Part shown: positions 6,595-11,442 of the stretch, in pieces
Layout: each line of letters starts with the position of its first letter
How positions within the stretch are numbered: the first letter of the stretch is position 1
NCBI RefSeq assembly: GCF_012272815.1
Contig: NZ_JAAWWL010000002.1
Coordinates: forward strand, 712,280-776,279
DNA length: 64,000 nt
DNA from: Croceivirga thetidis
GTDB lineage: Bacteria > Bacteroidota > Bacteroidia > Flavobacteriales > Flavobacteriaceae
Direction: 5' to 3'
Position numbers and translations under genes: made by a program
The notes under the pieces: model-generated
The model's input: only the letters and a program-made list of their open reading frames with translations
Told to the model about the DNA's origin: nothing
Database searches by the model: none

Positions 6595-7323
6595 ATGGAA
6601 AAAACTGTTTCAGAAGCCATCTCGTATCGTCGTTCAGTACGAATTTTCAATCCGGAAATAGAACTTGACACCAATATTGTGAAAGAGTGTATCAAAAACG
6701 CCTCTCTTGCCCCAACTAGCAGTAATCTTCAACTATGGGAATTCTACCATTTGACCGATTCTTCAATTTTAAAGAAAATGACCAAGGCATGTCTTGGGCA
6801 AAATGCGGCTAAAACTGCAAAACAGTTGTTGATTGTAGTTGTGCGAAAGGATTTATGGCGTAAACGTGCTGCAGCCAATATCTCGTTCCTCAAAAAATCC
6901 TTTGGCAATAAGTCAGCTTCTGATTACTCAAAAAGGGAAAAATTCGCATTGAATTACTACGAAAAATTAATACCCACAGTTTATTTCGATTTTCTTGGAA
7001 TACTAGGTTGGATTAAATTCTTGATATTTCAAGTATTTGGTCTCTTTAAACCCACTTATAGACAGGTAAGGACATCAGACATGCGAATTGTTGCCCACAA
7101 AAGTGCAGGGCTAGCGGCACAGAACTTTATGATAAGTATGGCCGCTCAAGGTTATGACACTTGTCCAATGGAAGGCAGTGATACCCTAAAAATTAAAAAG
7201 ATCCTGGGACTACCTTTTGGTGCTGAAATCAATATGGTTATCGGTTGTGGTGTTCGCGATGATGGCGGAATTTATGGAGAACGATTTCGAATTCCTTTTG
7301 AAGAGGTTTACCATCAATTGTAA
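6595..7323 (+). CDS. Nitroreductase family protein
   Basis: FMN-dependent NAD(P)H oxidoreductase of the nitroreductase fold. The diagnostic N-terminal YRRSVRIF (residues 11-18), which contacts FMN phosphate, is followed by ASLAPTSSNLQLWEFY. The C-terminal part has the family pattern with AGLAAQNFMISMAAQGYDTCPMEG and a G-C-G-VRDDGG ending. At 242 residues it is slightly longer than the minimal family because of a hydrophobic insert (DFLGILGWIKFLIFQVFGLF, about residues 129-148), which could help membrane association or dimer packing. It is divergent from ilvD and its last 10 bases overlap the convergent pxpC. The substrate cannot be inferred. Confidence 0.88.
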   Translation: MEKTVSEAISYRRSVRIFNPEIELDTNIVKECIKNASLAPTSSNLQLWEFYHLTDSSILKKMTKACLGQNAAKTAKQLLIVVVRKDLWRKRAAANISFLKKSFGNKSASDYSKREKFALNYYEKLIPTVYFDFLGILGWIKFLIFQVFGLFKPTYRQVRTSDMRIVAHKSAGLAAQNFMISMAAQGYDTCPMEGSDTLKIKKILGLPFGAEINMVIGCGVRDDGGIYGERFRIPFEEVYHQL

Positions 7324-8159
7324 AACAACTCAAATTTGATTTTATCACCCATTTTTTTCTGGGCTAAGGCAGAAATAGCATCATTTCGTAGTTGTAATAA
7401 TCTTGGGTAGCCTCCTGTAGTTTGACCATCACGCATTAATATTATCAGTTTACCTGCAGGGGTGCATTGCACCGTTCCTGGTAAGGTTGCAGATGTTAAT
7501 ATGTTATGGGAGTGACTCTCAAAGGCTTCTTCTAATTGGTAAGCCATACGATTGTTTTCCTTTGAGATATGAAATTCGGAAGCAAACAACTTATCAATTT
7601 GAGATTCAGATAAAAGATGGAATTCTGGACCCTGAAAAACCTGTAAATTCGTTTCAGACAGGTAATTGGCCGGTTTCATACCTGATATCAATGGATTGAA
7701 ATCGGAGTGCGACTTGTAGGCCACTTCGTCATTCTTCGTTAATTGCGCTTTCGGGGTCAATGGCATAAATTGAGATGCACTGTCCAAAACCATTTCAGTT
7801 TCAAAACCACCCTTGACACCCAAATAACAACGAAAACCGGAAGCCAGTTTTTCAAAAGATAATACATCACCCTTTTTAACTCGAATCACTGAATAATTCG
7901 AAATTGAGTCGTTATTCAATTTAGGGTTCATATTGGCACCCGTCAAAGTAATGAAAGTTGGCTCCAAAAATTCTAGTGTGGGGCCTGTCATCGTGATTTC
8001 TAAAACCGGAGTATTTTTTTCGTTCTCAAGAAGCCTATTACACTGTTCGAATGCCATGTTATCCATACATCCAGAAACCGGAACACCTTTATTTCGGAAG
8101 CCAAATCTACCAGAGTCTTGTATGGTGGTATAGAAACCGGGTTTCAAAATCTTAAGCAT
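7314..8159 (-). CDS. pxpC: 5-oxoprolinase subunit PxpC (KipA/AHS2 family)
   Basis: Third component of the ATP-dependent prokaryotic 5-oxoprolinase, which opens 5-oxo-L-proline to glutamate. The 281-residue protein shows the AHS2 (biotin-dependent carboxyltransferase-like) signature: QDSGRFGFRNKGVPVSG near the start, EITMTGPTLEF and TGANM in the middle, and MRDGQTTGGYPRLLQL toward the end. The start ATG lies inside the 3' end of pxpB (8-bp overlap), implying coupled translation. The 3' end overlaps the convergent nitroreductase gene by 10 bp. The length is near the short end for the family (usually about 290-330). Confidence 0.92.
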   Translation of the reverse strand: MLKILKPGFYTTIQDSGRFGFRNKGVPVSGCMDNMAFEQCNRLLENEKNTPVLEITMTGPTLEFLEPTFITLTGANMNPKLNNDSISNYSVIRVKKGDVLSFEKLASGFRCYLGVKGGFETEMVLDSASQFMPLTPKAQLTKNDEVAYKSHSDFNPLISGMKPANYLSETNLQVFQGPEFHLLSESQIDKLFASEFHISKENNRMAYQLEEAFESHSHNILTSATLPGTVQCTPAGKLIILMRDGQTTGGYPRLLQLRNDAISALAQKKMGDKIKFELFYN

Positions 8160-8883
8160 TCCAAGGCAATTTTTCAGGTTCTAAAATTCCCACTTGTGCT
8201 TCAATCTTATACACTTCATATTCAGGTTTCCCAATGCTAAAAAACTGTACCTTATCCCCAACACTAACAAAACATGGTGATTTTGCCTTAAGGTTGAACA
8301 TTGGCACAGGACATTTTCCAATAATATTCCAACCCCCAGGAGAATCCTGAGGATAAATACCCGTTTGCTTACCAGCTAGACCGACAGAACCTTTATCAAC
8401 ATGCAATCTTGGGGTATCTCGACGCTTGGTCTCAAGTACGGGTGGTAATCCGCCCAAATACATAAACCCCGGTAAAAAACCAATGCCGTATACCGTGTAG
8501 GAATGGGACGTGTGTAGTTTGATTATTTCTTCTTTGGAAAGACCTATTTGATCTTCTAAGGAGCTAAAATCAAGTGCGAACTCGTCGTCGTAACATACAG
8601 GGAGTTTCCATAAATATCGTTCCGTTTGTCCAAGCATGCCTTTTGTGGAATACCATTCTTCCAATTTAGGCTTGATTTCTTGAAAACTAATTGTAGTAAA
8701 CGGATTGACCAGTGTCAAAGAATTGTAGGCGGGTATAAGGTCCCAATTGTCGTCGAGAACACCTTTTAGCTTTTCTTGAAAAAATAAAATATCATCAAGG
8801 ATTTCTTCACTTACTTCATTGGGCCATTTAACAATTATTGCGGATTCGCCGTAAGCATCTATGGTTATTGGGAAGGAATTCAC
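8152..8883 (-). CDS. pxpB: 5-oxoprolinase subunit PxpB (KipI/AHS1 family)
   Basis: Partner of PxpC in 5-oxoprolinase; the Bacillus homologue KipI also inhibits the KinA kinase, but nothing here suggests that role. The 243-residue protein has the AHS1 signature: YTVYGIGFLPGFMYLGGLPP, then the TPRLHVDKGSVGLAGKQTG region and YPQDSPGGWNIIGKCP. The start is GTG at 8881-8883, sharing one base with the pxpA TAG stop (TAGTG), so translation is probably re-initiated. Order pxpA-pxpB-pxpC is the standard one. Confidence 0.93.
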   Translation of the reverse strand: MNSFPITIDAYGESAIIVKWPNEVSEEILDDILFFQEKLKGVLDDNWDLIPAYNSLTLVNPFTTISFQEIKPKLEEWYSTKGMLGQTERYLWKLPVCYDDEFALDFSSLEDQIGLSKEEIIKLHTSHSYTVYGIGFLPGFMYLGGLPPVLETKRRDTPRLHVDKGSVGLAGKQTGIYPQDSPGGWNIIGKCPVPMFNLKAKSPCFVSVGDKVQFFSIGKPEYEVYKIEAQVGILEPEKLPWNA

Positions 8884-9623
8884 TAGGCGATTTTCAGCTT
8901 ATAATTTGGCAATTCGCGTTGAAGATACGTTAATATTTTAAATGCCGAAGGGGTATCGCCATGAATACAATAAGTTTCAGATATTATAGGTTTATCAACA
9001 CCGCCAACTGTTCTAACTACACCCTTGATTACCATCCTTTTAATATGTTCCAACACCAATTTTGGTTCTTGGATTAGTGCGTTTTCGTTGGTTCTCGAGA
9101 CAAGACTTAAATCCGCATTATAATTTCTGTCTCCAAAAGCTTCATAAACAATAGTAAAGTTTAATTTTTTCGCCAATTTGGCCACTTTAGAATTGAATGG
9201 TACATATAACCGGCAGTTACTTTTATAAGAGTCAATAGCCTGCAAAAAAACGCCCGCAAGAATGTCATCTTTTGCAATTTGATTATACAAGGCTCCGTGT
9301 GCTTTTATATGATGCAAACTACCCCTTTCTTTTTGCAATAAGCTTGAAAATAAATTCATTTGGTTTTTTATACTTTCAACCAAATCCTTACTGGAAATAT
9401 CAAGAACTTTTCTACCAAAATTTTCTTTGTCAGGATAGCTCGGGTGCGCACCTATTTTAACACCATTTGAGATTGCCAATCCAATGGTATTCCGAATGAT
9501 TTTTTCATCACCTGCATGTCCGCCACAAGCAATATTACATGAACTGATTAAGGGTAATAGTTGTTCTTCATTGCCCACTCCCTCGCCTACATCACAATTA
9601 ATATCAATTAGTTTGAATCCCAT
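8883..9623 (-). CDS. pxpA: 5-oxoprolinase subunit PxpA (LamB/YcsF family)
   Basis: Catalytic-side subunit of 5-oxoprolinase. The 246-residue protein begins with the family signature IDINCDVGEGVGNEE and SCNIACGGHAGD, followed by VKIGAHPSYPDKENFGR and HIKAHGALYNQ; the Asp, His and Glu in these segments are the conserved polar residues of the LamB/YcsF TIM-barrel. The closing YCIHGDTPSA is also typical. The gene starts 2 bp after the NRAMP-like gene and overlaps pxpB by one base. Free 5-oxoproline arises from spontaneous glutamine/glutamate cyclisation, so the operon serves damage recycling or uptake. Confidence 0.94.
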   Translation of the reverse strand: MGFKLIDINCDVGEGVGNEEQLLPLISSCNIACGGHAGDEKIIRNTIGLAISNGVKIGAHPSYPDKENFGRKVLDISSKDLVESIKNQMNLFSSLLQKERGSLHHIKAHGALYNQIAKDDILAGVFLQAIDSYKSNCRLYVPFNSKVAKLAKKLNFTIVYEAFGDRNYNADLSLVSRTNENALIQEPKLVLEHIKRMVIKGVVRTVGGVDKPIISETYCIHGDTPSAFKILTYLQRELPNYKLKIA

Positions 9624-9625
9624 CT

Positions 9626-10831
9626 TTAAAAAAGTCCAAATACTTTGGCAATACTCTTCGCGCCTAAAAATAAAGTCAGCAATAAAATCAGGATGCCAAA
9701 GGTATTTTGAATCATAGAGTTTTTATTCGATGCCATTACACTGGTTTTGTTCACCATCCACAATAATATGAAAGCTATTAAAGGCAATAAGATGCCATTA
9801 GCTACTTGTGCAAATTTTATGACTTCTATTGGTTTGATTTTTAAAGTCAGAAAAAGAACGCCAATAAGAAGAATGCTAACCCATACCATTCGAAAGCGCC
9901 AATCTTTCAAACCTTTGTCCCAACCAAAACAACTTTTGGCAACATAAGCAGCTGCTAAAGGTGCAGTTATTGAAGAGGTAAGGCCTGCAGCGAAAAGACC
10001 AATACCCATAAAATAATTCGCCCATGCACCGAATAGTGGTTCAAGACCTTTCGCCAAATCATCAGCTCCATTAACATCTGTTGTGTCTATGGCAGATGCC
10101 GATATGATTATTGCCATTGAAACGACACCCCCGATGGCAATTGAAATCAAGGTGTCCCATCTGGCTGATTTTAAATGGGAAACTCCATTCCACTTTTCAT
10201 TTACCAATGAAGCGTGTAAAAACAGATTATACGGCACTATGGTCGTACCAACCAAGGCGATTATGGTCAATAGACTTTCTGATGAAATATTTGGAACGAA
10301 GAGTCCATTCAGTAGTTCACTGAAATCTGGTTTTGTCAAGATTGCGGTTACAACAAAAGCGATACTCATCAAAAAAATCAATCCGACAAATACGCGTTCC
10401 AAAAGTTTATAATTGCCAAACCATAGTAATAAAAAGGCTGCTATTCCTATGACCCAAGGAAAAAACAAGACATACGAATTGCCAAAAATGGAAGCTAGGC
10501 CTAAGGTAGCACCACCAATATTACCTGCTTCATAAGCAGCATTACCAACGAGTATTGCCGAAATAATTAGAACTAAGGCGAAAGTCCTTAATCCGCTATT
10601 AGAAACCCCTTCTTTAACCGCATCTGCTAATCCCTTGCCAGTAACCAAGCCTAATCGTGCAGCCATTTCTTGAAGTGACATCGTCGCCAAAACTGAAAAC
10701 AACAATGCCCATAATAAAGAATAACCAAAAGAAACCCCAGCCAGAGTACAGGCTGTAATTGTTCCTGGTCCAATAAAAGCAGCGGCCACTAAAATTCCCG
10801 GGCCTAAATTCTTTAATCTTGAATTTTTCAC
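9626..10831 (-). CDS. NRAMP-like membrane transporter with non-canonical metal site (YcsG-like)
   Basis: A 401-residue integral membrane protein with about 11 hydrophobic segments and NRAMP-family landmarks. In classical NRAMP transporters the metal is held by DPGN in helix 1 and MPHN in helix 6; here these read GPGT (residues 21-24) and VPYN (199-202), so the Asp, first Asn, Met and His are missing while the second Asn is kept. The gene leads the pxpABC operon (2-bp gap), as the NRAMP-like ycsG accompanies ycsF-kipI-kipA in Bacillus subtilis. Inference: it may carry 5-oxoproline or another organic or monovalent substrate rather than Mn/Fe. The start is GTG at 10829-10831; the nearby ATG is out of frame. 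Confidence 0.85.
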   Translation of the reverse strand: MKNSRLKNLGPGILVAAAFIGPGTITACTLAGVSFGYSLLWALLFSVLATMSLQEMAARLGLVTGKGLADAVKEGVSNSGLRTFALVLIISAILVGNAAYEAGNIGGATLGLASIFGNSYVLFFPWVIGIAAFLLLWFGNYKLLERVFVGLIFLMSIAFVVTAILTKPDFSELLNGLFVPNISSESLLTIIALVGTTIVPYNLFLHASLVNEKWNGVSHLKSARWDTLISIAIGGVVSMAIIISASAIDTTDVNGADDLAKGLEPLFGAWANYFMGIGLFAAGLTSSITAPLAAAYVAKSCFGWDKGLKDWRFRMVWVSILLIGVLFLTLKIKPIEVIKFAQVANGILLPLIAFILLWMVNKTSVMASNKNSMIQNTFGILILLLTLFLGAKSIAKVFGLF

Positions 10832-10995: not shown

Positions 10996-11442
10996 ATGAA
11001 GTGTAAAGAATGTGGTAGGCCCATAGGCTATTTAGAGCATAGAGAGGCAATGGACTATGTTGGAGTGGAACTCTGCTCTAGGCACTTAAAGCTCATCGAA
11101 AAAATAAAAAACGAAAAGGAAACCCCAAAAGAGGCTTTGCAACTGTATTATGCCTTAAAAGAGAATGGATTAAATCCAATGCTCGAATGGTGGGATGGTT
11201 CGAAATCCGTTGATATCGCAATTTCAAGGGTAAAACTGAATATCGATATTGGAACGGACTACGAATTAATGACCCACAAACAAGCTTTGGAAGATTTAGA
11301 AGAAACCATGCAGTCTTTCAAAAACGGGTTTACCAATATTCGAATTCCCCATATTTTGGTGAAACATTATTTAAGCGATACGGTAAAGTATGTAATTGGA
11401 ATTGTTGATGGACTCAAACTAAACTTAAAAGTTGTCAATTAG
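10996..11442 (+). CDS. Small protein with N-terminal C-x2-C/C-x2-H zinc-binding motif and unidentified domain
   Basis: The 148-residue protein has a likely zinc knuckle: C3-x2-C6 and C27-x2-H30. After a helical linker (about 31-58), residues 60-120 contain a beta-rich stretch with D73 and D84 (SVDIAISRVKLNIDIG) followed by a helix and the segment TNIRIPHILV. The order acidic residue, strand, Lys, hydrophobic strand, acid recalls the core of PD-(D/E)XK nucleases such as the DUF559 group, but the usual ExK is not clean, so this is only a suggestion. No signal peptide. It stands alone between divergent nramp and a terminator at 11513. I do not recognise a named family with confidence. Confidence 0.7.
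   Translation: MKCKECGRPIGYLEHREAMDYVGVELCSRHLKLIEKIKNEKETPKEALQLYYALKENGLNPMLEWWDGSKSVDIAISRVKLNIDIGTDYELMTHKQALEDLEETMQSFKNGFTNIRIPHILVKHYLSDTVKYVIGIVDGLKLNLKVVN

Follow-up and report, generated by a model that had tools for sequence, protein, structure and literature searches.

A putative 5-oxoproline importer of the NRAMP-related proteins, with a non-canonical pocket, heads the pxpABC operon of Croceivirga thetidis

The window, meaning the whole stretch of 64,000 nucleotides of Croceivirga thetidis DNA that was analysed (contig NZ_JAAWWL010000002.1, positions 712,280 to 776,279), carries an NRAMP-related gene followed by the three subunit genes of a 5-oxoprolinase. Its features, in window coordinates, are listed below.

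9626..10831, minus strand: pxpT-like carrier gene, NRAMP-related, clade 1 (GPGT / YEAGN / VPYN), 401 aa, GTG start (sequence, Pfam, tree, AF2 model)
10760..10771, minus strand: TM1 unwound motif GPGT, residues 21-24, replacing DPGN (sequence and alignment to canonical members)
10520..10534, minus strand: TM3 motif YEAGN, residues 100-104, with N104 at the canonical Glu position (E134 of DraNramp) (alignment)
10226..10237, minus strand: TM6 unwound motif VPYN, residues 199-202, replacing MPHN (sequence and alignment)
9624..9625, minus strand: 2-bp gap between the carrier stop codon and the pxpA start codon (sequence)
8883..9623, minus strand: pxpA, 5-oxoprolinase subunit A (LamB/YcsF) (PF03746, 262 bits; NF003814, 239.6 bits, cut-off 226)
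8152..8883, minus strand: pxpB, 5-oxoprolinase subunit B (PF02682, 217 bits; TIGR00370, 159.7, cut-off 145.55)
7314..8159, minus strand: pxpC, 5-oxoprolinase subunit C (PF02626, 243 bits; PxpC models matched under their curated cut-offs)

The four genes lie on one strand in the order carrier-pxpA-pxpB-pxpC; 2 bp separate the carrier from pxpA, and the next two junctions overlap by 1 bp and 8 bp. The carrier matched the Pfam Nramp family (PF01566) at 302.7 bits (E 4.5e-90; gathering score 29.8 bits). The initial annotation had described an NRAMP-like protein with GPGT for DPGN and VPYN for MPHN at the head of pxpABC, 2 bp upstream; the profile matches, the sequence and the alignment confirmed both statements. 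The NCBIfam Nramp_1 equivalog also matched (116 bits, cut-off 50), giving an NCBIfam label of metal transporter, while the score against the NCBIfam MntH subfamily was 180.3 bits, far under its cut-off of 430 bits. Elsewhere in the host genome, other PF01566 matches (L002, L003, L004) read GTGS, GGGT and GTSH at TM1, and no canonical DPGN/MPH NRAMP was present. On the far side of the carrier, a divergent gene of 148 aa with a Cys-rich start and no Pfam match (window 10996-11442, plus strand) has relatives, at 44-61% identity, near a clade-1 carrier in 12 other loci, mostly of Flavobacteriaceae. At the other end, pxpC and a nitroreductase-like ORF (6595-7323) converge, their 3' ends sharing 10 bases (window 7314-7323).

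Pocket residues were taken from alignments, with eight canonical members as the reference and DraNramp numbering. TM1 of the carrier reads FIGPGTIT and TM6 reads VGTTIVPYN; D56, N59, M230 and H232 of DraNramp correspond to G21, T24, V199 and Y201, and A227 to T196. The TM3 glutamate E134, part of the proton/metal network, is N104 in the carrier, and Asn occupies this position in all aligned rows of clade 1 and clade 2. The canonical Slc11/NRAMP signatures (DPGN in TM1, MPH in TM6 and the TM3 Glu) were all absent from the carrier in this alignment. The last Asn of MPHN is preserved, as is the metal-contacting Q378, which aligns with Q342. In DraNramp, D56A and D56N abolished transport of Mn and Cd (PMC6398981), and a later mutant library took D56A as its control for absent transport (PMC13060092). 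The earlier statement that the Asp, first Asn, Met and His are replaced held in the alignment; its description of Met and His as residues that hold metals was slightly overstated, because His232 is placed below the metal site, with no direct metal coordination (PMC13060092). Over 57 diverse sequences aligned with the carrier, 38 positions were invariant and 46 nearly so. The invariant positions cover the TM1 and TM6 breaks plus the TM3 and TM10 sites, and together with the nearly invariant ones they span the substrate site (G21, P22, G23, T24, N104, G195, T196, T197, Y201, N202, Q342 and N345).

An AlphaFold2 (AF2) model built from 57 aligned sequences, with two plasmid-record rows left out, predicted an NRAMP (LeuT) fold for the carrier (mean pLDDT 92.9, pTM 0.92). 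Its best structural matches were of the NRAMP family: DraNramp (PDB 6D91) gave Z 49.8 with an rmsd of 2.4 over 384 residues and EleNRMT Z 43.9, whereas amino-acid carriers (AdiC, LAT-type) scored far lower, at about 27-30. The predicted fold, which the carrier has in common with canonical NRAMP/MntH, is by itself uninformative on substrate; it is the signature residues that set the two apart. The Mg carrier EleNRMT (PDB 7QIA; PMC8806188) was the top PDB match both by sequence and by Foldseek, at 27% identity. However, NRMTs keep a TM1 Asp (DxxG) and a TPWM-like TM6, and their signature, TM1 DxxG with TM6 TxxA/T, was absent from the carrier, which has Gly at the Asp position. Another likeness, by described residues only, is to Cellier's 'orphan outgroup' of Slc11, whose helix-3 Y..N and helix-6 V-Y match clade 1: Y100...N104 and V199/Y201 of the carrier fit the residues named in PMC10606218, and the substrate of that outgroup is left unassigned (PMC10606218, PMC9606685).

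In order to follow the clade of this carrier, which we call clade 1, we searched 247 Bacteroidota genomes, 57 of which held a relative at E <= 1e-40. A scan of the whole collection contributed another 80 loci, among them loci of Bacillota, Pseudomonadota and Halobacteria, and further samples covered Halobacteria and two phyla, those to which a Natroniella and a gammaproteobacterium belong. Among the 160 distinct clade-1 sequences, TM1 reads GPGT (one GTGT), TM6 reads VxYN throughout, and the TM3 motif ends in N, nearly always as xxGN. Thus the changed motif is fixed across clade 1, and its loss in one lineage could be ruled out. The pxp genes adjoin 108 of the 160, hydantoinase/oxoprolinase (OPLAH-type) genes adjoin 26, and 26 stand beside neither enzyme type, many of these loci having flanks of only 1.5 kb. 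A same-strand pxpA follows the carrier in 118 locus records, some of which share a genome, with a median gap of -6 between open frames. By comparison, neither the 14 canonical DPGN/MPH sequences nor the 20 NRMT-like sequences included any beside pxp or hydantoinase/oxoprolinase genes. The initial annotation had proposed to look for the metal-ligand motif in other pxp-linked members, and none of 126 distinct pxp-linked sequences keeps it. With the motif fixed clade-wide and the linkage to pxp recurring in Bacteroidota, Bacillota and Pseudomonadota, their combination is not a matter of chance. In the plasmid and phage collections, close relatives were only haloarchaeal, plus one from Pseudoalteromonas. 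One clade-1 carrier with no pxp gene nearby (L036:1480-4189) adjoins a gene for gamma-glutamyltranspeptidase, an enzyme of gamma-glutamyl metabolism.

Since the clade-1 loci had been gathered by similarity to the carrier, the question was repeated from the side of pxpA, with 84 loci picked by pxpA alone (three of the genomes being sample seeds). An NRAMP-like gene lay within 1.5 kb at 31 of the 84: the loci from Bacteroidota gave 18 of 24, the Pseudomonadota sample 6 of 30 and the Bacillota sample 7 of 30. These neighbours comprised 23 members of clade 1 and 8 of clade 2. A canonical NRAMP beside pxp was searched for and found at none of the 84 pxpA loci.

The second enzyme type belongs to the hydantoinase/oxoprolinase family, which is unrelated to PxpABC. 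In haloarchaea, the clade-1 carrier lies directly upstream of two-subunit hydantoinase/oxoprolinase genes; one haloarchaeal operon adds a gene of the Asp/Glu-racemase family. In some Bacteroidota and Pseudomonadota it adjoins an enzyme that unites the hydantoinase A and B domains in one chain of about 1240-1280 aa, as the eukaryote-type 5-oxoprolinase does. The same family holds N-methylhydantoinase and caprolactamase, a caveat for the substrate of these neighbours as judged from sequence. In a tree of 66 sequences, clade 1 was supported at 95/91 and the NRMT-like rows formed a supported clade of their own. Within clade 1, the pxp and hydantoinase/oxoprolinase labels were interleaved, with at least four switches, and placing all its pxp-linked members in one clade was rejected (p-AU 0.00026). 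PxpABC, a dedicated 5-oxoprolinase, shares 5-oxoproline as substrate with the OPLAH-type 5-oxoprolinases. That the pocket is kept while the partner swaps between two unrelated enzymes points to their common substrate.

The parallel with Bacillus subtilis YcsG needs qualification. We read the YcsG sequence from a genome that we identify as B. subtilis 168 and in which the KipI fragment of PDB 2zp2 is matched at 100%. The protein (L378:3812-5026, 404 aa) contains AIGPGFLTQ, AFNIGNIGG and GGTVGGYIT, without DPGN or MPH, and has Gly both at the position of the essential Asp (D56) and at that of Q378. It is only 24% identical to the window carrier and falls in a separate clade, clade 2, which had support of 100/100 in the 66-sequence tree. 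Members of clade 2 are linked to pxp genes as well, in Bacilli, Pseudomonadota and some Bacteroidota. Placing every pxp-linked carrier in one clade was rejected (p-AU 1e-36); joining clade 1 and clade 2 was not (p-AU 0.31). The initial annotation had spoken of the same association as ycsG in Bacillus. YcsG is indeed an NRAMP-related protein of a pxp operon, but it is not the same gene: with its low identity, separate clade and other pocket residues (GPGF/FNIGN/GGYI), an orthology to ycsG was ruled out, and the parallel is therefore not one of orthology. In the B. subtilis operon, YcsI (L378:5032-5823) matches D-glutamate cyclase (PF07286), a hint that D-5-oxoproline may be another substrate in that operon.

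Two published lines of work concern PxpT and YcsG. The Corynebacterium glutamicum carrier PxpT, which like the window carrier is NRAMP-related and heads its operon (pxpTABC), is needed for growth on 5-oxoproline, and its deletion was complemented; a role in metal transport was not ruled out in that work (PMC13274462). Since PxpT is 50% identical to YcsG (PMC13274462), it is expected in clade 2, unlike the window carrier. YcsG itself was renamed MntG, as a manganese importer, because its overexpression raised cellular Mn in B. subtilis; a triple mutant of mntH, mntA and ycsG could not be made (PMC10448178). With Gly at the D56 position, the rise in Mn has to be explained in some other way or by metal binding of an unusual kind, and in a protein with no Mn ligands it may be indirect. 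Both YcsG and, judging from its published identity, PxpT fall in clade 2, so that their phenotype transfers to clade 1 only by analogy.

We propose that the protein is a secondary carrier of the LeuT fold and brings 5-oxoproline (pyroglutamate) into the cell for the cytoplasmic PxpABC, and assign this reading a probability of roughly 0.78. The absence of metal-holding residues, the 5-oxoproline operon and the recurrence of the group beside two unrelated enzymes make acid import, rather than manganese import, the most likely function. The uptake of 5-oxoproline or a related cyclic acid, as suggested in the initial annotation, is well supported by genomic context and, by analogy, by the genetics of the related clade. 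In the proposed mechanism, the carrier would bring in the 5-oxoproline anion and deliver it to the ATP-dependent PxpABC, which would open the ring to yield glutamate for use as carbon and nitrogen source. The neutral polar TM1 break (GPGT) may bind the carboxylate through backbone amides and Thr24, Tyr201 and Asn202 of TM6 together with Asn residues of TM3 and TM10 may hold the lactam, and a co-transported cation, H+ or Na+, would drive the import of the anion. The analysis shows the predicted fold, the missing metal ligands, the alternative pocket found clade-wide and the tight linkage to ring-opening enzymes; the growth phenotype of PxpT and the gamma-glutamyltranspeptidase gene beside the pxp-free member L036 were also counted for import. 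Against it stand the 26 clade-1 members beside which ring-opening genes were not seen, many with short flanks, and the rise in cellular Mn upon YcsG overexpression (PMC10448178); moreover, the true substrates of the hydantoinase/oxoprolinase neighbours could be hydantoins or other lactams rather than 5-oxoproline.

As has been argued for YcsG, the carrier might instead import a divalent metal (Mn, Fe or Mg) and happen to share its regulation with nitrogen metabolism. We find this improbable, given that Gly stands where D56A and D56N are dead for Mn and Cd (PMC6398981), that the NRMT-type carriers retain the TM1 Asp which the window carrier does not, that the metal-ligand motif occurs in 0 of the 126 pxp-linked sequences, and that gene linkage tracks ring-opening enzymes. 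A metal carrier would nevertheless accord with the PF01566 match and NRAMP fold, the Nramp_1 equivalog score above its cut-off and the preserved Q342; we keep it as a minor rival because of the YcsG data, namely the raised Mn and the unobtainable triple mutant (PMC10448178), and because the host genome has no DPGN/MPH member, even though YcsG is itself without Mn ligands and its effect may be indirect. A different cargo, such as hydantoin, another lactam acid, D-5-oxoproline or glutamate, or the export of 5-oxoproline for detoxification, is unlikely as well, but is a reading that the neighbours invite: the OPLAH-type family includes N-methylhydantoinase and caprolactamase, a haloarchaeal operon has its Asp/Glu-racemase-family gene, and a subgroup with VTYN or VAYN adjoins a 2-oxoacid:ferredoxin oxidoreductase instead. 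Yet the commonest neighbour, PxpABC, is dedicated to 5-oxoproline, which the OPLAH-type 5-oxoprolinases accept too, and the block of growth on external 5-oxoproline upon PxpT deletion fits import (PMC13274462). Lastly, the pattern of missing ligands could by itself resemble decay, as in a degenerate or regulatory NRAMP remnant with no transport function; the conservation across the 57 sequences (38 positions invariant, 46 nearly so), substrate site included, and the confident full-length predicted fold leave that reading scarcely credible.

The direction of change also deserves attention. The initial annotation had described the motifs as lacking or removed, which implies loss. In a published rooted phylogeny, however, the motif-less NRAMP-related proteins branch off paraphyletically before the canonical NRAMPs (PMC12873925), and the metal site was therefore more likely gained later, 'lost' being probably the wrong direction. 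Our free tree paired canonical members with NRMTs (88/85), and a grouping of clade 1 with canonical members was not rejected (p-AU 0.29). Nor does an unusual substrate shift describe this gene well, as the change is common to the whole clade and 5-oxoproline uptake by the NRAMP-related PxpT had already been proposed (PMC13274462). Import of 5-oxoproline by this family is already argued for PxpT and YcsG, the latter being contested as a Mn importer. What is new, as read from sequence, is a second, uncharacterised clade with its own fixed pocket and linkage to two unrelated enzyme types, together with the lack of Mn ligands in YcsG. The latter exposes a contradiction, in that a protein renamed as a Mn importer has none of the Mn-binding side chains of NRAMPs. 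As haloarchaeal records illustrate, clade-1 genes routinely bear the label 'Nramp family divalent metal transporter', and if clade 1 carries 5-oxoproline, this label is wrong for a large group across bacteria and haloarchaea.

More broadly, the uncharacterised group next to the metal NRAMPs may consist of carriers of small cyclic acids, namely 5-oxoproline and its relatives. Under this tentative proposal, to which we give slightly less than even odds, NRAMP metal transport would derive from an amino-acid-like anion carrier that acquired the Asp, Asn, Met and His, and certain members, those next to 2-oxoacid:ferredoxin oxidoreductase, would have moved on to other acids. The cargo of the ancestral NRAMP metal carrier becomes a testable question. 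The clade-1 subgroup with VTYN or VAYN in TM6 comes from Bacteroidota loci (L040, L043, L044) and possibly has a different acid substrate. At L040:2046-6226 the carrier directly follows the alpha and beta genes of the oxidoreductase, and at L043 and L044 the neighbours match those of L040, a likeness by size and order alone.
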